A stretch of 64,000 nucleotides of DNA from contig OY282369.1 of assembly GCA_958295735.1 (NCBI GenBank), forward strand, positions 1,844,161-1,908,160. Reading direction: 5' to 3'. The translations under genes and the position numbers were made by a program. Origin of the DNA: an uncultured Candidatus Cenarchaeum sp. Its GTDB lineage: Archaea > Thermoproteota > Nitrososphaeria > Nitrososphaerales > Nitrosopumilaceae. This document shows, piece by piece, positions 39,410 through 64,000 of the stretch (the stretch's first letter is position 1; the number at the start of each line of letters is the position of its first letter). The notes beneath the pieces were generated by a model that was given only the letters and a program-made list of their open reading frames with translations, had not been told where the DNA came from and made no database searches.

Positions 39410-40882
<1,473 letters not shown>

Positions 40883-41055
40883 GACACACGGAATGCGGAG
40901 TGCACGGGTCCCCGCGGCTAGCGCCGCGGGGGCCGATCTTCGCGCGGACCATCGAATGCAATGCGCCACGAAAGTGGCGTATGAAGGATGTAGCGCCCCC
41001 CAGCGTGGGGGCGCGATGATCATCGCGCATAGTCGTGTAATATGTGGCTGAATAT
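40883..41055 (+). other. 16S-23S internal transcribed spacer without tRNA
   Basis: About 170 bases. A strong hairpin CCCCGCGGCTAGCGCCGCGG lies near 40911. No tRNA-Ala or other tRNA is present, as in other group I.1a archaea. GTGGCTGA (about 41043-41050) pairs with TCAGCCAC after the 23S (44111-44118), extending the 23S terminal helix into a precursor stem with an ATAT bulge. Confidence 0.8.
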
Positions 41056-44110
<3,055 letters not shown>

Positions 44111-55218: not shown

Positions 55219-56259
55219 TCAGGCCCCCTTCTGCCGCCTCTCCGTGAGGTGCCTGTCGGCCTCCAGGGCCGCCATGCAGCCGTAGCCGGCCGCGGTCACG
55301 GCCTGCTTGTAGTGCCGGTCGTGGACGTCGCCGGCGGCGAACACGCCTTCCACGCTGGTCATGGCGGTCCCGTTCCGCAGCGCCACGTACCCGTCCCCGT
55401 CCGTCTCTACCTGGCCCCCGAGCATCGCCGTGTTCGGGTCGTGCCCTATCGCCACGAACACGCCCCCGACCCTCAACTCGCTCTCCTCGCCCGTCCTGGA
55501 ACTGCGCAGCGTCACCGACTCGACCCTCCCGCCCCCGCGGATCTCCTTGACCTCGCACGACATGTGCATCCTTATCTTCGCGTTGCCCCTGGCGCGCTCC
55601 TGCATCACCCTGCTGGCGCGCAGCTCGTCCCTCCTGTGCACCACGTGGACGGCCGAGGCGAACTTTGTCAGGAACGTGGCCTCCTCCATCGCCGAGTCGC
55701 CGCCGCCCACCACGGCAAGCTCGGCCCCCCTGAAGAACGGGCCGTCGCACGTGGCGCAGTACGAGACCCCCTTGCCGGCGAGCGCCTCCTCCCCGTCCAG
55801 TCCGAGCTTGCGGGGGCTGGCGCCCGTGGCTATTATGACCGCATCCGCCTCGTACTCCTCGCTGGCGGTGAGCACCTTGAACGGCCTCCTCCTCAGGTCG
55901 ACGTTGACCGCCTCCTCGTCGACGATGGAGGCCCCCGAGTTCTTCGCCTGCTCCCTCATGTCGGCCATGAGGTCGGGCCCCATGACCGCCTTCGGGAACC
56001 CCGGATAGTTCTCCACCTCGGTGGTGTTGACGAGCTGCCCGCCCGGCAGCAGGCCCGAGAGTATGAGCGTGCGGCGCCGCGCCCTGGAGCAGTACACGCC
56101 GGCCGTGTACCCCGCGGGACCGGCCCCGATTATGACCACCTCGTACGCCGTGCCTCCCCCGGCCGGCCCCGGCCGCTCGCCTCCTCCCGGCCCGCCGGCG
56201 GGATCGCCTCCGCGCCTCTCGACGAGCACCGCCCCGGACGAGGCCCCGCCCGCCATCAT
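55219..56259 (-). CDS. trxB: Thioredoxin reductase
   Basis: 346 residues, flavoprotein. FAD motif VVIIGAGPAGYTAG, redox-active CATC in VSYCATCDGPFF, NADPH motif LAVVGGGDSAMEEATFL and a second FAD motif GVFAAGDVHD. About 35 Gly/Ala-rich residues precede the FAD domain. ATG 56259 (MMAGG) is chosen because a TATA-like CTTAAATTG is about 27 bases upstream; the TTG 56283 start would be inside it. It maintains thiol redox balance and may supply electrons to sulfur-transfer reactions. Confidence 0.94.
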   Translation of the reverse strand: MMAGGASSGAVLVERRGGDPAGGPGGGERPGPAGGGTAYEVVIIGAGPAGYTAGVYCSRARRRTLILSGLLPGGQLVNTTEVENYPGFPKAVMGPDLMADMREQAKNSGASIVDEEAVNVDLRRRPFKVLTASEEYEADAVIIATGASPRKLGLDGEEALAGKGVSYCATCDGPFFRGAELAVVGGGDSAMEEATFLTKFASAVHVVHRRDELRASRVMQERARGNAKIRMHMSCEVKEIRGGGRVESVTLRSSRTGEESELRVGGVFVAIGHDPNTAMLGGQVETDGDGYVALRNGTAMTSVEGVFAAGDVHDRHYKQAVTAAGYGCMAALEADRHLTERRQKGA

Positions 56260-56412
56260 GCGCCCGCGACGGGGGCGCAACAATTTAAGTCATTTCAAGC
56301 GCGGCCCCTCCCGCCGCCCGCCCCGGCCCGGATCGGCGGGCGCGCCGCCCCGCGCCCGCGGCGGGGCGGCCCGCGGGGCCGGGAATCCGGAGCCGGCGCG
56401 GCCCCCGCCCCC

Positions 56413-57201
56413 CTAGCCGGCCCCCGCCCTCCGGAGGGCCGCGGCGTGCCGCCCGCAGAGCCGGCCGGACTCCACCTGCGCGCGCAGCAGTTCCTCCTGC
56501 CAGTGCGCGTTGTACAGCCTGCAGTCCCTGTCGCCGCAGAACGCCTCGCCCGTGGCGTAGTACGCGACGGCCTGCAGGGCGTACCCCTCGGCCGCGGCGG
56601 CCATCCTCGGGTCCCCGCGCTCCAGGTACCTCCCGGCGTACCTTTCCGCCGCGCGGCCCGCGTCCCCGCCCAGCGCCGCCGCGCCGATGAGGTCGACGTA
56701 GTACTGCCTCGGCCTGGCGGGCGCCTCGACCATCCCCGGCGCGGAGATCAGGGCCGGGTTCGACCCGATGAGCGCCCTGCCGTGGTACCGCATGTCCCCC
56801 TCGTCCTCGTAGGTGCAGGTGAGCCGGCCGGTGATCACTATGTGCAGGACGTCCCTTTCGGCCTCCGCGCGGGGGATCATCCCCGCCACCGCGCGCTGCA
56901 TCTCGAACCCGTCGTAGCACGCGGCGCCCGGCGCCCGGCCGGCCGCCCCCGCGCGGATCCCCCCGGAGATCTCCTCGTCGATCTCGCGCGGATCCGGCCT
57001 GCGCCTCCTGAACGGCCTCGCCGTGCTGCCCACCCTGCACGAGGCCAGCGCGGCGGCCTGCGCCGCCGTCATGCCCTCGAAGATGCCGCCGGACGGCGCG
57101 GCGGGGGCCCCCGTGCAGCCGCGCAGGAACGAGGCGAGCGCGCCCGCGCTCACCTCGGGGACCGCCGCATCCCCGTACACCGCCACGCGCGATATCCTCA
57201 A
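56413..57201 (-). CDS. Archaeal DUF6775-like protein
   Basis: 262 residues. Conserved-looking core: CYDGFEMQRAVAGMIP, HIVITGRLTCTYEDEGDMRY, GSNPALISAPGMVEAP, ARPRQYYVDLIGA, and a C-terminal CGDRDCRLYNAHWQEELLRA. This pattern recalls an uncharacterised archaeal family (DUF6775, by memory). TTG 57201 (reading LRISRVAVYGD) is 19 bases after the thi4 stop, so it is the second gene of that operon. Cys and His residues suggest metal binding; function unknown. Confidence 0.65.
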   Translation of the reverse strand: MRISRVAVYGDAAVPEVSAGALASFLRGCTGAPAAPSGGIFEGMTAAQAAALASCRVGSTARPFRRRRPDPREIDEEISGGIRAGAAGRAPGAACYDGFEMQRAVAGMIPRAEAERDVLHIVITGRLTCTYEDEGDMRYHGRALIGSNPALISAPGMVEAPARPRQYYVDLIGAAALGGDAGRAAERYAGRYLERGDPRMAAAAEGYALQAVAYYATGEAFCGDRDCRLYNAHWQEELLRAQVESGRLCGRHAAALRRAGAG

Positions 57202-57220
57202 GGCCGGGGGCGCCTAGGGG

Positions 57221-58042
57221 CTAGTCCCCGCCGGCGCGCAGATCCTTCATGCCGGCGGCGGCCACTTCGGCCGCCTTTTTGCCGGAGAACAGCATGGAGC
57301 CGAAGGTGGGGCCCATCCTGGCCAGCCCGTGCGTCTCGGTGACCGACATGCCGGCGGCCACCAGCCCCGGGAAGACCTCGCCGGTCATGCGGACGACGCT
57401 GTCCTCCCCGCCGTCCACGTGCATCGGGTCCATGCCCTTCCACTCGGCCAGCCCCCTGTCCGCGAGGCGCTTGACCGCCACCGAGTCGTGCCCCGAGGCG
57501 TCTATCACCATCCCCGCCTCGAGGGCGACCGGATCCACGCACGTTATGTTGCGCGGCAGCGCCGAGACGGGCATCCAGTTCACCACCACGCCCGCGACGC
57601 GCCCGCCCTTGAGCACGAGATCGTCGAACTTCGTGAGGTTGAGGAACTTGACGCCCGCATCGCACGCGCCCGCTATGAGCTTCGACACCGCGTGGGGGCC
57701 GGGCGTCAGGTACAGGCCCTCGGCCGCCTTCTTGTACGGGATGCCGAGCTCGTCCCAGACCTTCTGGGCCGGCTCCCTCACCGTGACGGGGTTCATCATG
57801 TACCCGCCCAGCCAGTAGCCCCCGCCCAGGTAGTTGTTCTGCTCCACGACGAGCACCCTGAACCCCATGAGCGCCAGCTCGCGCGAGGCCGTCAGGCCGG
57901 CGGGCCCCGCCCCCACCACGATGACGTCGGAGACGGCCCTGTCCATGAGGACGGAGTTGAACTCGGAGGCGATGGCCCTGGTGATCTCCGCCTCGCCGAC
58001 CGGCTCGAATATCCGCCCGGCCCGGCCCTCGGCCTTCTGCAT
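57221..58042 (-). CDS. thi4: Thi4-type thiazole synthase with a Cys at the sulfur-donor position
   Basis: 273 residues. FAD/NAD motif VIVVGAGPAGLTASRELALM, GGGYWLGGYMMN, VVVNWMPVSALPRNITCVDP, IDASGHDSVAVKRL, and the C-terminal GLARMGPTFGSMLFSGKKAA. In yeast Thi4 the Cys directly before MDP gives up its sulfur (single turnover); many methanogen enzymes have His there and use sulfide. This protein has Cys before VDP, suggesting the suicide type. ATG 58042 has a TATA box (GTATTAATCA) 26 bases upstream. Confidence 0.92.
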   Translation of the reverse strand: MQKAEGRAGRIFEPVGEAEITRAIASEFNSVLMDRAVSDVIVVGAGPAGLTASRELALMGFRVLVVEQNNYLGGGYWLGGYMMNPVTVREPAQKVWDELGIPYKKAAEGLYLTPGPHAVSKLIAGACDAGVKFLNLTKFDDLVLKGGRVAGVVVNWMPVSALPRNITCVDPVALEAGMVIDASGHDSVAVKRLADRGLAEWKGMDPMHVDGGEDSVVRMTGEVFPGLVAAGMSVTETHGLARMGPTFGSMLFSGKKAAEVAAAGMKDLRAGGD

Positions 58043-58082
58043 GGGCCCGCTGGCCGCCGGTCGTGATTAATACCTTGTCTTT

Positions 58083-58125
58083 CCGCGGGCGCGAATCCGG
58101 ATCGACGGAAGCGCTTCCGCGCCGG
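58083..58125 (-). repeat. Dispersed repeat family 2 copy
   Basis: CGCGGGCGCGAATCCGGATC, then GACGGAAGCGCTTCCGCGCC, lying between the divergent thi4 and siroheme reductase promoters. Confidence 0.65.
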
Positions 58126-58191
58126 CGGGCGCGCGGCCCGAACGCCGGAGCGAGACTCAAATTTATAACCGCGCGCGGCGCACCGTGCGCG

Positions 58192-60060
58192 TTGGACGAG
58201 AATCGGCCGGCCGCCGGCGGGGCGGCAGCCGCGCAGGAGGAGGCCCGCCCCCGGGATCCGCGGCCGGAGGCCGGCTGGTCGCACGCCGGGGAGGCCGACA
58301 GTTTCGCACATACCGTGAAGCTGTTCCGGCAGGGCCGGTACGACGCGGACAGCTTCAGGCGGTTCAGGCTCCAGAACGGGGCGTACGGCACGCGCATGAC
58401 GGGGGACTACGCCATGGTGCGCATAAAGATCCCCGCGGGGCGGCTCCTCCCCTCCCAGATGGAGATGGTGGCCCAGCTGAGCGAGGCATACTCGATAGGC
58501 GGCGCCCACCTCTCCACGCGCGAGAACGTCCAGCTGCACTGGGTAGTCCTGGAGGACGTCTCGGAGATAATGCGCGGGCTGGCCGAGGTGGGCCTGACCT
58601 CGCGCGAGGCGTGCGGCAACACCGTGCGCAACGTCATGTGCAGCCCCCTGTCGGGGGTGTGCGGGGAGGAGGCCTTCGATGCCACCCCGTACGCGCTGGC
58701 CACCGCCAAGTTCTTCCTGCGCAACCCCATGAACCAGAACCTACCGCGCAAGTTCAAGTTCAACTTCACGTGCTGCGAAAAGCACGGCATGGTGCGCATG
58801 GTCGACGTGGGCCTGCTCCCGCTGGCGCGCCCCGCCCCGGACGGGGGAGGGGGCTCCCAGCGCGGGTTCAAGGTCTTCCTGGGCGGCGGGCTCGGGAACA
58901 GGTCGTTCGTGGGGCACCAGCTGGAGGACTTCACTCCGGAGGAGGAACTCCTGCACACCTCGATCGCCGTCCTGCGGATATTCGACAGGCTGGGCGACCG
59001 CAAGAACATGGCCCGCAACCGCATGCGGTACATGGTGAACGAGATGGGCTGGGAAAAGTTCCGGAACCTCGTCCTCAAGGAGCGCGCCGTGGTAAAGTCC
59101 ACGCAGTCGGTCGCGGCGAGGCTGGACGTGGGCCGCGGCGGGGATCCGCCGCCGCGCCCCCCCCCGGTGCGGGTGGAGGCGGACGTGGGCGGCGGCCCGC
59201 CGGCCGGCTTCGCCAGGTGGAAGGCCGCCAACACGCTGGCCCAAAAGCAGCCGGGGTACAGCGCCGCCTTCGTCACGCTGGAGGCGGGCGACATCACCGC
59301 CGGGCAGCTCCGCTCGATGGCCGCCGCGTGCAGGGAGTTCTCGGCCGAGGCGTGCGCCCGCAACGGCTTCTCCCAGGACATGGTGGTGCGCCACGTCCGC
59401 GATGCCGACCTGCCGGCCCTGTACTCGCGGCTGCTCGGCGCGGGCCTGGCGCGGCCCGGCGCGCTCACGATGGCCTCGCCCGTCGGCTGCTCGGGGACGA
59501 CGTCGTGCAACCTGGCCCTGACCAACTCCCACCGCCTCGCCAAGGAGATACAGCGCAGGTTCCTGGAGGAGGGGCTGGACGCCGACGCCGACCTGGCCGG
59601 CGCCACGATAAAGATCAGCGGGTGCCCCAACTCGTGCGGCCAGCACGGCATAGCCACCATCGGGTTCAACGGCGGGGGCTCCAAGGCGCGGGGGCGCATG
59701 TACCCGGTGTACCAGATGTCCGTCGGCGGCCGGTTCGACGGGCAGACCGCCCTGGGAGTCAACTGCATGAGGATGCCGGCCAAGCGCGTCATCCCCGCCG
59801 TGCTCAGGGTGATAGAGCTGTTCAGGCGCGACAAGGAGGCCGCCGGCGGGGCACCGCAGGCGGGCACCCTGGCGTCGTGGGCCCACGGCGTGGCCGCGGG
59901 GACCGGCGCCGGCGCCGTGCGCACTGTGGCGGACTTGAAGAGGGAGCTGGCCCCGCTGGCCGAGCCGCCGGAGTTCGGGGACGATCCCGGATTCTATTCG
60001 GACTACGGGAGCGACGGCGGCTACCACGCGCGCACGGGCCGGGGTGAATGCGCCGCTTGA
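58192..60060 (+). CDS. Siroheme-dependent nitrite/sulfite reductase
   Basis: 622 residues, two ferredoxin-like repeats. Siroheme/4Fe-4S ligands: VGCSGTTSCNLALTNSHR (C-x5-C) and ISGCPNSCGQHGIATIG (C-x3-C). First-half landmarks: GAHLSTRENVQLHWVVLED and GNTVRNVMCSPLSGV. Ferredoxin is the likely electron donor; whether sulfite or nitrite is reduced is not settled. Nearby sulfur genes favour sulfite. TTG 58192 is 26 bases after a TATA box (TTTATAACC), a leaderless start. A Gly/Pro-rich insertion occurs near residue 315 (GRGGDPPPRPPPVRVEAD). Confidence 0.9.
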   Translation: MDENRPAAGGAAAAQEEARPRDPRPEAGWSHAGEADSFAHTVKLFRQGRYDADSFRRFRLQNGAYGTRMTGDYAMVRIKIPAGRLLPSQMEMVAQLSEAYSIGGAHLSTRENVQLHWVVLEDVSEIMRGLAEVGLTSREACGNTVRNVMCSPLSGVCGEEAFDATPYALATAKFFLRNPMNQNLPRKFKFNFTCCEKHGMVRMVDVGLLPLARPAPDGGGGSQRGFKVFLGGGLGNRSFVGHQLEDFTPEEELLHTSIAVLRIFDRLGDRKNMARNRMRYMVNEMGWEKFRNLVLKERAVVKSTQSVAARLDVGRGGDPPPRPPPVRVEADVGGGPPAGFARWKAANTLAQKQPGYSAAFVTLEAGDITAGQLRSMAAACREFSAEACARNGFSQDMVVRHVRDADLPALYSRLLGAGLARPGALTMASPVGCSGTTSCNLALTNSHRLAKEIQRRFLEEGLDADADLAGATIKISGCPNSCGQHGIATIGFNGGGSKARGRMYPVYQMSVGGRFDGQTALGVNCMRMPAKRVIPAVLRVIELFRRDKEAAGGAPQAGTLASWAHGVAAGTGAGAVRTVADLKRELAPLAEPPEFGDDPGFYSDYGSDGGYHARTGRGECAA

Positions 60061-60851
60061 GCGGCGGGCGCGTGACGATAGACGCCGACTCGCTCCGGTC
60101 GGAGGTGCGCGACTCGAGCATCAGGGTCGTGGACGTGCGCAGGGAGGACGAGTACCGCCGCGGCCACGTCCCGGGCGCGGTCAGCCTCCCCCTGGGGGGG
60201 CTGCTCTCGGACGACAGCCCCGAGGGGACCGGCCGGCTGTTCGGCTCCGTGGGCATCGACGAGCGGGTGCCGGTGGCCGTCTACGACGACACCTTCGGCG
60301 CGCTCGCATCGCGCGCGGCGTGGGCGCTGGAGCACATGGGGCACCGGCAGGTCTCGCTGCTGGACGTCACGTATTCCGGGTGGGCCTCGATGGGGATGGA
60401 CAGCGAGGAGGGGGGGCCGCCGGACGTGGCGGCGCGGCGCCCCGGGGTGGAGCCGCGCCCCGACATGGCCGCATCCGCGGAGCGCGTGGAGTCGGCGGCC
60501 GGGGGCGGCGGGGCCGTCCTGGTGGACAACAGGGAGCGCCTGAACTACCTGGACCAGCACATACCGGGCGCCGTCAGCATCCCGTACAGGATGCTCGCCT
60601 CGCCCGACCGCATACTGCTCCCCCCCGGCAGGATGCGGCGCCTGCTGGAGAACAGGGGCGTGTGGGGGAGGGATGCCATAACGTACTGCGGCAGCGTGGG
60701 GACGCTCTCGGGGCTCGCGTACTACGCGTTCCGCTCCGCGGGCATGGAGGGCGTGAGGCTGTACGCGCGCTCCTTCAAGGAGTGGAAGAGCCTGCAAAAG
60801 CCGGTGGAGAGGCAGGAGCACGCCAACTACTGGGACCTCTCCGCCGAGTGA
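60048..60851 (+). CDS. Two-domain rhodanese (thiosulfate sulfurtransferase)
   Basis: 267 residues. The first rhodanese domain (about 10-115) has VVDVRREDEYRRGHVPGAV but an Asp-Asp (VYDDTFGA) instead of the catalytic Cys loop. The second domain (about 155-260) has LVDNRERLNYLDQHIPGAVS and the active-site loop ITYCGSVGTLSGLAYYAFRS. The start overlaps the reductase gene by 13 bases, so they are co-transcribed. It probably moves sulfane sulfur; linkage to a reductase suggests sulfite/thiosulfate handling. Confidence 0.92.
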   Translation: MRRLSGGRVTIDADSLRSEVRDSSIRVVDVRREDEYRRGHVPGAVSLPLGGLLSDDSPEGTGRLFGSVGIDERVPVAVYDDTFGALASRAAWALEHMGHRQVSLLDVTYSGWASMGMDSEEGGPPDVAARRPGVEPRPDMAASAERVESAAGGGGAVLVDNRERLNYLDQHIPGAVSIPYRMLASPDRILLPPGRMRRLLENRGVWGRDAITYCGSVGTLSGLAYYAFRSAGMEGVRLYARSFKEWKSLQKPVERQEHANYWDLSAE

Positions 60852-61128
60852 GCGCGGGCCGCCCGCCCGCCCGCCGCCGCGGGCGGCGCCGCCCGGAATC
60901 CGGCGCGGGAACTCCGGGTCGCGCGGCATAAAATCGCGCGCCTGCCGGCCGCGGGCGCGAAAACGACCCCGCTGATCGGCATTCGCGCCTGAAGCTGGCA
61001 TTGCTGACCTCGTGCGTCGCGCGGCGGCGCGCCTCCCGGCCGCGGCTTTCCGCGCCGCCGGGAATCCGGCGCGGGGACCGCGGGGCCCGCCCCCCGGGGC
61101 GCCGACCGGGGCATCCGCGGCCCGCCGG
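60852..61128. repeat. Intergenic spacer with family 2 repeat
   Basis: Family 2 copy at 60951-60992 (GCGGGCGCGAAAACGACCCC, then GCTGATCGGCATTCGCGCC). CCGCGCCGCCGGGAATCCGG-type sequence occurs twice (about 60888 and 61050). No gene seen. Confidence 0.55.
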
Positions 61129-62292
61129 TCACGGCACGCCGCTGCGCAGCTGCTTGGTGACCGCCGTCTCGACGTTCTCGAAGACGCTGAGCATCTTTTT
61201 CCTGTTGTCCAGCAGAAAGTCCGCCCCGTGGTCGCTGAGCCTTATCTTCCAGAGCCTGATGTCGCGGTGCTCCTCGAAGAACTGCTCTATCATGTGGCTG
61301 CCGTGGAGCTTTGGGTCTATGAGCTTGTCGAAGCCGGCGGTTATCCTCCCGACGTCCCCGTCCTCGATGGCGGCCCGCGTCTCGTGGACCGTCCTGCCGA
61401 GGTCCTTCAGGTCCCTGATGGCGCCGGGGAGCCCCTTCTTGGGCCTGCGTATGCCCAGCAGGCCCCTCTTTTCCGTGCCCACCCTCTTCGCGATGTCGGG
61501 CGCCAGGTCGTACGTGGGTATCTTGTGCAGCCCTTCCCTCTTTTCATGCCGCACGAGCAGGCCCTTTTCCAGCAGCTTGGCCAGCGCGTCCTCCGCGTCG
61601 GCCCTGTCGAGGAAGGTGGTCCACACTATGGCGCCTATGGTGTGGTAGCCCTGCCTGACCGACTCCAGCACGACCACCTCGATTATCCTCCTGAACCCGT
61701 CCTCCACGCGGACGTTGATGAAGTCCCTGTCCTTCACGGCCTTTTTGGCGTTGTGCACGTCGATCTCTATGGAGCGCTTGAGGGCCGCGACGGCCTCGGG
61801 GATCTGCATGAGGAGGGAGAGGTAGCAGGCCTTGTTGTACCAGGCCATGCCGTACGTGGGATCCGAGTCGACGGCCTTTTCGACGCAGTCCAGCGCCTTG
61901 GCGAAGTTCTTCTGCTCGTAGTGCACGAGTGATCTCAGGTTCCACGTCTCGGCATCGGTGACGTCGATCTCCAGTATGCGGTCGTACGCCCTGAGCGCCT
62001 CGGCGTGGTCGCCCAGCTGGAATTTCGCGTACCCGAGCTTGAGCAGCACCTCCACGCTGTCGGGGTCCAGCCTGAGGGCCTGCTCGAACGCCTCGGCGGC
62101 CTCCTCCAGCTTTTCGTCCGCCATGAGGTTGACGCCCCTCTTGAACAGCTTTTTCCGCTGGTAGTCGGCATCGGTGAGCTCCGAGCCGGGCTTCGCGGGC
62201 CCGGCGCCTTCTGCCCTCGCGGGAAGGCCGGCCTTTTCCGGGGCGCCGCCCCCCGGCGCGCCGTCCTGGCCTTCCCCGGGCGGCCCGCTCAT
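61129..62292 (-). CDS. TPR protein with C-terminal winged-helix-like region
   Basis: 387 residues. N-terminal 40 are Gly/Pro/Ala-rich; about four TPRs follow (FEQALRLDPDSVEVLLKLGY, YDRILEIDVTDAETWNLRSL, VEKAVDSDPTYGMAWYNKAC, LKRSIEIDVHNAKKAVKDRD). The C-terminal half includes IGAIVWTTFLDRADAEDALA then KLLEKGLLVRHEKREGLH, resembling a winged helix. ATG 62292 has a TATA box (GTATTTATCC) about 27 bases upstream. Function unknown; possibly a scaffold or regulator. Confidence 0.82.
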   Translation of the reverse strand: MSGPPGEGQDGAPGGGAPEKAGLPARAEGAGPAKPGSELTDADYQRKKLFKRGVNLMADEKLEEAAEAFEQALRLDPDSVEVLLKLGYAKFQLGDHAEALRAYDRILEIDVTDAETWNLRSLVHYEQKNFAKALDCVEKAVDSDPTYGMAWYNKACYLSLLMQIPEAVAALKRSIEIDVHNAKKAVKDRDFINVRVEDGFRRIIEVVVLESVRQGYHTIGAIVWTTFLDRADAEDALAKLLEKGLLVRHEKREGLHKIPTYDLAPDIAKRVGTEKRGLLGIRRPKKGLPGAIRDLKDLGRTVHETRAAIEDGDVGRITAGFDKLIDPKLHGSHMIEQFFEEHRDIRLWKIRLSDHGADFLLDNRKKMLSVFENVETAVTKQLRSGVP

Positions 62293-62324
62293 GCGGGCGT
62301 CGGCGCTCCCTTTGGATAAATACC

Positions 62325-62685
62325 ATTCCAAGCGCCGCCCCCGCCGCCCCCCCCCCGCGCGCCGGAAGATCCGGGACGCCGCATCGCCGCCCCCGCCGCC
62401 CCCCCCCGCGCGGCCGCGCGGGCGGCCGCGGGGACGCGATGCGGGCGGCCGCGGGGAAGTGGGGCGCCGCCGGGCAGGCCGGCACGGGCCGCGGCGGGGC
62501 GGGCCGGCGCACGGGAGGCCTGCGGGGCCGGCCGCGCCCCGCAGCCCGGCCGCGGGGCGGGCGCATCCTGGCCGGCGCTGCGCGCGCGGAGCCGCCCGCT
62601 CCGGGCCGGGCGCGGACCAGGATCCGCGGGGGCGTTCCCGCGCCCGCGGCTGCCGGGCGCGAGTACCCGCGCGGCAGCATCTTGA
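62325..62685. other. Intergenic G+C-rich spacer with a family 2 repeat
   Basis: CGCCGCCCCCGCCGCCCCCC-type runs occur twice at the start (about 62336 and 62387). A reverse family 2 copy lies at 62605-62652 (CCAGGATCCGCGGGGGCGTT, then CCCGCGCCCGCGGCTG). No gene seen. Confidence 0.55.
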
Positions 62686-62700
62686 AAATACAGAAATACT
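62686..62700 (+). promoter_or_regulatory. TATA region of the collagen-like gene
   Basis: AAATACAGAAATACT in otherwise G+C-rich DNA, centred 27-34 bases before TTG 62723. Confidence 0.55.
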
Positions 62701-62722
62701 TCGTGGTGAGTACCCGGGCGGG

Positions 62723-64000
62723 TTGGATGCGGCCAGAATGGTGAGGGTGCAGGGGGCGGCGCCGTTCAGCCAGCCCGGCGTGTTCGAGGTGGTGATCTCC
62801 CTCGCCGCGCAGCGGCCTCCCGCCGCCGGCATAGATGCCAAGAACTTTCCCGTCCTCTGGAGCGACCGCTTCCACCTGCGCGTGAAGGACGGCCGCTTCG
62901 ACGAGGTGCTCGGAAGCGCGGAGAACCCGATCCCCGACTCGGTGTTCGCGCTGCGCACCGCTTGGGTGGTAGTGACCGACCAGTTCTCTACCACGCATTC
63001 CGTATTCGACATAGTGGTGCCCGATGCCGCCCCGCAGCCGGCGCCCCCGCCCGCCGCCCCGCAGCCGGCGCCCCCGCCCGCCGCCCCGCAGCCGGCGCCC
63101 CCGCCCGCCGCCCCGCAGCCGGCGCCCCCGCCCGCCGCCCCGCAGCCGGCGCCCCCGCCCGCCGCCCCGCAGCCGGCGCCCCCGCCCGCCGCCCCGCAGC
63201 CGGCGCCCCCGCCCGCCGCCCCGCAGCCGGCGCCCCCCGCCTGGCAGTCGCCGCCAAGCGAGAGGGGGCGGCAGGGCCCGCCAGGCGACAAGGGCCCGAG
63301 CGGCCAGCCGGGCGAGAGGGGGCGGCAGGGCCCGCCAGGCGACAAGGGCCCGAGCGGCCAGCCGGGCGAGAGGGGGCGGCAGGGCCCGCCAGGCGACAAG
63401 GGCCCGCCAGGCGACAAGGGCCCGAGCGGCCAGCCGGGCGAGAGGGGCCAGGCCGGCCAGTCGGGACCCTCGGGCGACAAGGGGCCGCAGGGCCAAAAGG
63501 GCCTGACCGGCGACAAGGGCGACAGGGGCGACAAGGGCCAGTCGGGCCCGATCGGCGAAAAGGGCGAGCGGGGCCCCTCGGGACCCCAGGGCGACAAGGG
63601 CCCGCAGGGCCCGCGGGGCCCGATCGGCGAAAAGGGCGAGCGGGGCCACTCGGGACCCCAGGGCGACAAGGGCCCGCAGGGCCCGCGGGGCCCGATCGGC
63701 GAAAAGGGCGACACGGGGCCGACCGGCCAGCTTGGCGACAAGGGGCTTACCGGCGAGCGGGGCCCGTCAGGCTCCAAAGGCGAGACGGGCTCGGCCGGGC
63801 CCCTCGGCGACAAGGGCATACAGGGCCCCGCCGGCCCGCCCGGCGACAAGGGAACCGTCGGACCTCCCGGCGAGAACGGCCCCGCCGGCCCGCCGGGGCA
63901 ACAGGGCAAGGACGGGCCCGCGGGCCCCCAGGGGCTCTCGGGCGACAAGGGCCCCGCCGGTCCCACCGGCCCGCTCGGCGCGAAGGGCCTTACGGGGCCG
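62723..64000 (+). CDS. Collagen-like protein, 3' end beyond the window
   Basis: The frame is open to the last base: 426 residues visible, no stop. TTG 62723 (LDAARMVRV...) lies at the leaderless distance from AT-rich promoter sequence; ATG 62738 is the alternative. Residues 1-101 form a compact, probably beta domain (NFPVLWSDRFHLRVKDGRFD, EVLGSAENPIPDSVF, LRTAWVVVTDQF) that resembles head domains of bacterial surface and fibre proteins (W-S-D...V-x-DG-x-F...LGS..P-I-P...VF). Residues 102-173 are eight 9-residue repeats AAPQPAPPP. From residue 182 (base 63266) there are 81 complete Gly-X-Y triplets with no break, rich in GDK, GER, GEK, GPP and GPQ. No Cys and no obvious signal peptide. Likely a trimeric triple-helix fibre; location unknown. 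Confidence 0.92.
   Translation, partial: MDAARMVRVQGAAPFSQPGVFEVVISLAAQRPPAAGIDAKNFPVLWSDRFHLRVKDGRFDEVLGSAENPIPDSVFALRTAWVVVTDQFSTTHSVFDIVVPDAAPQPAPPPAAPQPAPPPAAPQPAPPPAAPQPAPPPAAPQPAPPPAAPQPAPPPAAPQPAPPPAAPQPAPPAWQSPPSERGRQGPPGDKGPSGQPGERGRQGPPGDKGPSGQPGERGRQGPPGDKGPPGDKGPSGQPGERGQAGQSGPSGDKGPQGQKGLTGDKGDRGDKGQSGPIGEKGERGPSGPQGDKGPQGPRGPIGEKGERGHSGPQGDKGPQGPRGPIGEKGDTGPTGQLGDKGLTGERGPSGSKGETGSAGPLGDKGIQGPAGPPGDKGTVGPPGENGPAGPPGQQGKDGPAGPQGLSGDKGPAGPTGPLGAKGLTGP
63026..63241 (+). repeat. 27-bp tandem repeat, exactly 8 copies, inside the collagen-like gene
   Basis: Unit GCCGCCCCGCAGCCGGCGCC then CCCGCCC, encoding AAPQPAPPP. Only the last unit differs (ending CCCGCC, Ala instead of Pro). It forms a rigid Pro-rich stalk between the N-terminal domain and the collagen region. 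Confidence 0.92.
63266..64000 (+). repeat. Gly-X-Y collagen region with internal duplications
   Basis: 245 codons in perfect Gly-X-Y register. An 18-residue block GRQGPPGDKGPSGQPGER is repeated at the start (63266 onwards), and a later block GPQGDKGPQGPRGPIGEK occurs twice (about 63581 and 63656), showing growth by in-frame duplication. Confidence 0.9.

Follow-up and report, generated by a model that had tools for sequence, protein, structure and literature searches.

The collagen-like protein described here is a new, family-defining archaeal variant of this class of proteins. It seems to be a vertically inherited core protein of the Nitrosopumilaceae, hereafter Nitrosopumilaceae collagen, and apparently was undescribed before; we found no description of this protein family in openly licensed PubMed Central papers. 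The protein studied here is the local orthologue. We see about an even chance that the core protein is produced and folds within the cytoplasm as a trimeric collagen rod, which would act as an intracellular spacer or scaffold. Its gene starts near the end of the window, i.e., the whole 64,000-nucleotide stretch that was analysed (G000:C1:1844161-1908160 of a single-contig 3.17-Mb genome). It combines the features by which we define the family: the head domain, in single copy, a locus with Thi4, NirA, sulfurtransferase, and TPR genes, the C-terminal hairpin, and the promoter box.

Architecture of the protein

The gene continues for 1,035 bp beyond the window end, up to a normal stop in the whole-genome sequence. 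The initial annotation had recommended reading on to see how the protein ends, and about 1 kb further it does so properly, with a predicted helical hairpin. The complete gene lies on the plus strand and encodes 770 amino acids, from a TTG at 62723 to the stop at G000:C1:1909195 (L009:5035, equivalent to window position 65035). Its features are as follows.

62686..62701, plus strand: promoter box AAATACAGAAATACTT, near-invariant in the 5' flanks of about 65 loci, at the BRE/TATA position for a leaderless start
62723..64000, plus strand: part of the collagen gene within the window, with a TTG start; 770 amino acids overall
62738..63025, plus strand: N-terminal beta-sandwich-like head domain (pLDDT 95.9, pTM 0.87); the ATG at 62738 is an alternative start
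63026..63265, plus strand: Pro/Ala stalk, about eight perfect copies of AAPQPAPPP plus WQSPPSER; lineage-specific
63266..64000, plus strand: first 81.7 of 185 Gly-X-Y triplets; the remainder is at L009:4001-4930
L009:4931-5032, plus strand: predicted helical-hairpin C-domain of 34 amino acids, past the window and after the tract

The protein thus consists of a beta-type head (residues 6-101 approximately, about 97 amino acids), the stalk (102-181), 185 Gly-X-Y triplets without interruption (182-736), and a C-terminal domain with the sequence (M)PDAQKAMFKDLLEALTAKSVITTEEQIRLMSYLY. By sequence, it is collagen-like: it matches the Pfam Collagen model PF01391 in six stretches (4e-86), and the 283 bits obtained exceed the curated cut-off of 27.2. 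In 20,000 residue shuffles of the tract, the longest run of triplets was 16 or fewer, against the 185 observed. Charged triplets are favoured, with 15 GDK, 11 GEK, and 9 GER among the 185. The initial annotation, which had reported at least 81 uninterrupted triplets, a preference for such charged pairs, a Pro/Ala stalk, and a small beta-type N-terminal domain, was therefore accurate on the part of the protein that it covered.

Only two traits are specific to this lineage. The long and perfect Pro/Ala stalk was not seen in relatives, and, in a comparison of 49 distinct complete proteins, this tract is the longest, with 185 triplets versus 84-142 in the others. At the DNA level, the stalk is made of a 27-bp unit in 7.9 perfect copies, the expanded tract contains tandem units of 54, 72, and 135 bp, and the coding sequence has a GC content of 79%. 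Both traits are consistent with the growth of repeats in a GC-rich genome; taken alone, they are no argument for a role in interactions with a host.

The two terminal domains were modelled with AlphaFold as single chains. The head is predicted to have six strands and two short helices. The annotation had proposed structure prediction and profile searches for this domain, and these gave a confident fold without a significant relative: no significant match was found in solved structures (best E 0.29) or in viral models (Foldseek against PDB and BFVD), nor at the sequence level in Pfam, PHROGs, NCBIfam, and PDB. The C-domain is a predicted two-helix hairpin (pLDDT 94.9). It resembles SHOCT (PF09851) in being a two-helix hairpin of similar size with an L..L...K/G..IT..E pattern. 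Membership was not established by profile comparison: hmmscan against Pfam gave no match, and one hhalign comparison gave a P value of 0.009 and a probability of 4.6%.

Distribution and genomic context

The head profile (HMM A3), which matches this protein at 1.2e-38, was searched in 398 genomes of the phylum. It occurs in single copy in 60 of the 63 Nitrosopumilaceae genomes and in none of the 335 others; the three family genomes without it are multi-contig drafts. Among the relatives, 36 of 37 Nitrosopumilaceae genomes have one head each, and the 24 genomes that belong to other families of the order have none. When named genomes were scanned, 46 loci came up, and all those named below the phylum level belong to the Nitrosopumilales: Nitrosarchaeum, marine and limnetic Nitrosopumilus, Nitrosotenuis chungbukensis MY2, and Nitrosotalea devanaterra and bavarica. 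The remaining loci come from environmental assemblies labelled just Thaumarchaeota or archaeon. The absence of the gene from independent assemblies had been named as a possible refutation, and it is present in dozens of them.

Complete homologues keep the same order of head, linker, 84-185 triplets, and C-terminal hairpin. The exception is L082, which is spread over several frames, with apparent breaks within the tract. The hairpin profile (HMM A4) matches this protein at 4.0e-20 and, at significant E-values, is confined to this protein family. Conservation of the tract climbs toward its C-terminal end, where specific residues are kept, and the N-terminal end is variable in sequence; a near-invariant GPRGPPGPPG closes the tract just before the C-domain. 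Close pairs of homologues are under purifying selection: where pairs are in register, pN/pS is mostly 0.03-0.2, with a range of 0.05-0.26 for the head and of 0.03-0.24 for the stretch made of the final 40 triplets and the C-domain (3 of 13 pairs were left out in the head, and the pair L013/L012 in the C-terminal stretch, because they are out of register).

The locus is conserved as well. On the 5' side, the order is a thioredoxin-reductase-like gene, cluster 5, Thi4, a NirA-like gene, a sulfurtransferase, a divergent TPR gene, and the collagen gene; on the 3' side, there follow, often, a small gene of 93 amino acids, and then a GTPase, a phosphatase, and ArgRS. These neighbours are housekeeping genes. 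About 37 named loci share this order, and nearly all loci show it where the stretch is long enough. It is also found here (window 55219-64000 plus L009), except for the small gene. The latter is no obligate partner of the collagen, since it is absent here and in a genome of the same genus and occurs in other families that lack the collagen. Further downstream, at L009:5547-6569 on the minus strand (window-equivalent 65547-66569), a 42-bp unit is repeated about 20 times and reads as a basic repeat (KRPTNGRRASTATKK); other frames are also open. In the corresponding position, Nitrosotalea and Nitrosarchaeum have basic repeats of the APKRRS type, which perhaps belong to an H1-like protein.

The gene also has a promoter element of its own. 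Across about 65 loci, with few exceptions, the near-invariant 16-bp box AAATACARAAATACTT begins 34-35 bp upstream of the start codon. Archaeal promoters place the BRE/TATA element in this way for leaderless genes, and the position of the box fits such an element. The second AAATAC of the box lies 26-27 bp upstream of the start in most relatives and 29 bp upstream of the TTG at 62723 here; because of this spacing, we favour the TTG over the ATG at 62738. The box at 62686-62701 is the sole exact copy in this genome and was retained despite the GC-rich surroundings. When up to one mismatch was allowed, most matching family genomes had one box at the collagen gene and few elsewhere.

The genome itself leaves little room for an artefact. 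It was feared that this contig end might be bacterial, viral, or chimeric, and such an origin is ruled out, since the window is internal to the one 3.17-Mb contig that makes up the genome (completeness 96.75%, contamination 0.44%), and this genome encodes an archaeal AmoA (1.7e-118). This AmoA, together with close relatives that are Nitrosopumilaceae, also shows that the initial annotation was correct in assigning the sequence to an ammonia-oxidising archaeon. The genome, with about 70% GC in the window, is unusually large (3.17 Mb, versus 0.8-2.2 Mb in the other family members sampled); its only genus-mate in our collection is a single-contig genome of 2.0 Mb. Within the window, GC drops to 0.56 at 40001-44000, with a GC skew of +0.14, in surroundings mostly at 0.66-0.74. 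Elsewhere in the genome, another PF01391 match (L079, G000:C1:2470918-2471073) is just a repeat of low complexity (GIRGARGIRG) for which several frames are open, and is probably no collagen.

These data bear on two readings proposed for the protein in the initial annotation. The first is a fibre derived from a virus or a contractile system, which we now regard as very improbable. Like the collagen tail fibres of phages (PHROG 6320 and 5073), the protein has a Gly-X-Y tract that these families match and lacks a signal peptide; phage fibres likewise have none and fold inside the cytoplasm. However, the PHROG matches come from the Gly-X-Y repeat only: the head and the C-domain match no phage family, the head has no match among viral structures at E<=0.001, and none of the 2.9 million viral contigs scanned yielded a relative. 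The gene is instead a cellular, syntenic, single-copy core gene among housekeeping neighbours, and in the flanks compared no gene was recognised as viral or as part of a contractile system; for these reasons a phage-fibre origin is unsupported.

The second is a sponge-symbiont protein that mimics or binds host collagen. A sponge link of this lineage is plausible. Sponges are known to harbour high-GC archaea of the Nitrosopumilaceae (PMC6697440), and it is in this lineage that the longest tract and the unique Pro/Ala stalk are found. Yet the suggested comparison of sponge-associated and free-living relatives revealed homologues throughout the family, outside sponges as well as in them, including Nitrosotalea devanaterra and Nitrosotenuis chungbukensis. 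The named relatives are mostly free-living, in habitats that include soil, groundwater, lakes, and the ocean, and their proteins have no export signal. A sponge-specific role is thus unsupported, because free-living species share the head, the promoter, the neighbours, and the C-terminus, and this is an ancestral core gene there too. As the function of the family, host interaction is largely refuted, and we find it extremely improbable.

Export signals and cellular location

The initial annotation was puzzled by the lack of a visible signal peptide. This lack is genuine and extends to the complete homologues: in none of the 49 distinct proteins could a signal peptide, a membrane span, or an LPXTG motif be recognised. 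Only 2-8 codons separate the start codon from the head in relatives, and about one third of the loci have a stop in frame just 6-9 codons ahead of the head, making a signal peptide impossible there. The first 60 residues hold no strongly hydrophobic segment (the highest 17-residue hydropathy mean is 1.16), and no Gly-X-Y tract of a complete homologue contains a cysteine.

Bacterial collagen-like proteins described so far are mostly surface or spore proteins, and the cell surface is the usual place of prokaryotic collagens in general. The same trimeric rod could therefore be exported without a classical signal, through an unknown secretion system, in vesicles, or by lysis, and serve on the S-layer or cell surface as a fibre, an adhesin, or an envelope stiffener. 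We consider this somewhat unlikely, given the absence of signal peptides, membrane spans, and LPXTG motifs in the complete homologues.

The published data that touch on this question come from Ca. N. chungbukensis. According to an ISME J 2026 article (PMC13037477), surface genes including an "LPXTG-anchored collagen-like adhesin" are upregulated in dilute medium; collagen-like adhesin genes are reported as upregulated under low salinity in strain MY2, and one such adhesin was detected in the proteome. The orthologue may be the protein meant; in that case, its authors put it at the surface, apparently from annotation. We found two collagen genes in MY2, the orthologue and an apparent collagen adhesin with a signal peptide. 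The orthologue is the more similar to the SclB model NF038329 (167 bits versus 49 and 44), which is why the name may refer to it. However, the second collagen/repeat adhesin, with its signal peptide, could equally be the one, neither protein reaches the cut-off of 325 bits, and the LPXTG motif is absent from both in the available sequence. This apparent second gene (L077 and L078) is split over two contig ends and encodes DDAAKKAA and FG-GAP/VCBS-like repeats.

Cross-linking by lysyl oxidase was also considered. Thaumarchaea, Nitrosopumilus among them, have been reported to possess this enzyme (PMC4448552, PMC6452851). In our data, PF01186 was found in only 2 of 37 family genomes (L148 and L149) and not in this one, so lysyl oxidase is not linked to the presence of the collagen gene.

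Comparison with known systems and possible function

The streptococcal collagen-like proteins Scl1 and Scl2 (NF038330, NF038329) have a globular N-terminal domain followed by a long uninterrupted Gly-X-Y tract, stabilised by charges without hydroxyproline, and this layout is shared here. The repeat scores 290 bits to NF038329, which is below the equivalog cut-off of 325 (relatives score 303, 208, and 167). Unlike Scl1 and Scl2, the protein has no signal peptide and no LPXTG, its head lies outside the NCBIfam models, and it carries a conserved C-terminal helical hairpin and is encoded by a single-copy core gene. By the tests made, Nitrosopumilaceae collagen does not qualify as an Scl-type adhesin or as a phage fibre. 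Other collagen-like proteins of the Nitrososphaeria (L077/L078 of Nitrosotenuis, and L080 and L081 of other families) are also archaeal Gly-X-Y proteins, but they have a hydrophobic N-terminal segment, lack the head and the hairpin, and carry other domains, such as FG-GAP/VCBS-like repeats and, in L081, CxxCH motifs.

How could such a protein work? From these features we infer trimerisation, a direction of folding, a triple helix, a cytoplasmic location, and a spacer role. The conserved C-terminal hairpin would trimerise three chains and bring them into register. The GPP-rich end, with the near-invariant GPRGPPGPPG acting as a clamp beside the hairpin, would nucleate the triple helix, which would then zip from the C to the N terminus. 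At its N-terminal end, the rod would carry three beta-sandwich heads, attached through a linker that is flexible or rich in Pro. Being stiff and about 70-160 nm long, it could keep the partners bound by the heads apart from whatever the C-terminal end binds. At 0.286 nm per residue, the computed rod length is about 160 nm here and about 72-122 nm in the other proteins.

The charged rod or its heads could alternatively bind an intracellular polymer rather than space partners, as a nucleoid- or ribosome-related accessory protein. The cytoplasmic-type sequence, the strongly conserved promoter, and the basic H1-like repeat frame found downstream in several species, including this one, would be compatible with such a role. 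We nevertheless hold it to be improbable: there is no direct sign of nucleic-acid binding, and the basic repeat frame is not seen in every locus.

Near-universal presence in single copy and an unusually conserved private promoter suggest that Nitrosopumilaceae collagen has an important housekeeping role. Collagen-like proteins are usually viewed as components of the animal matrix, of bacterial surfaces and spores, or of phage fibres, and to our knowledge cytoplasmic collagen is hardly known in prokaryotes except in phage and spore assembly. Here, a signal-less collagen with a structurally unmatched head is a near-universal single-copy gene of a family that is among the most abundant archaea on Earth. 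We tentatively propose, with slightly less than even confidence, that it is the core intracellular collagen of the Nitrosopumilaceae, a cytoplasmic triple-helical rod used as a cytoskeletal strut or scaffold. If true, a dominant archaeal family would share a core collagen strut or scaffold inside its cells.
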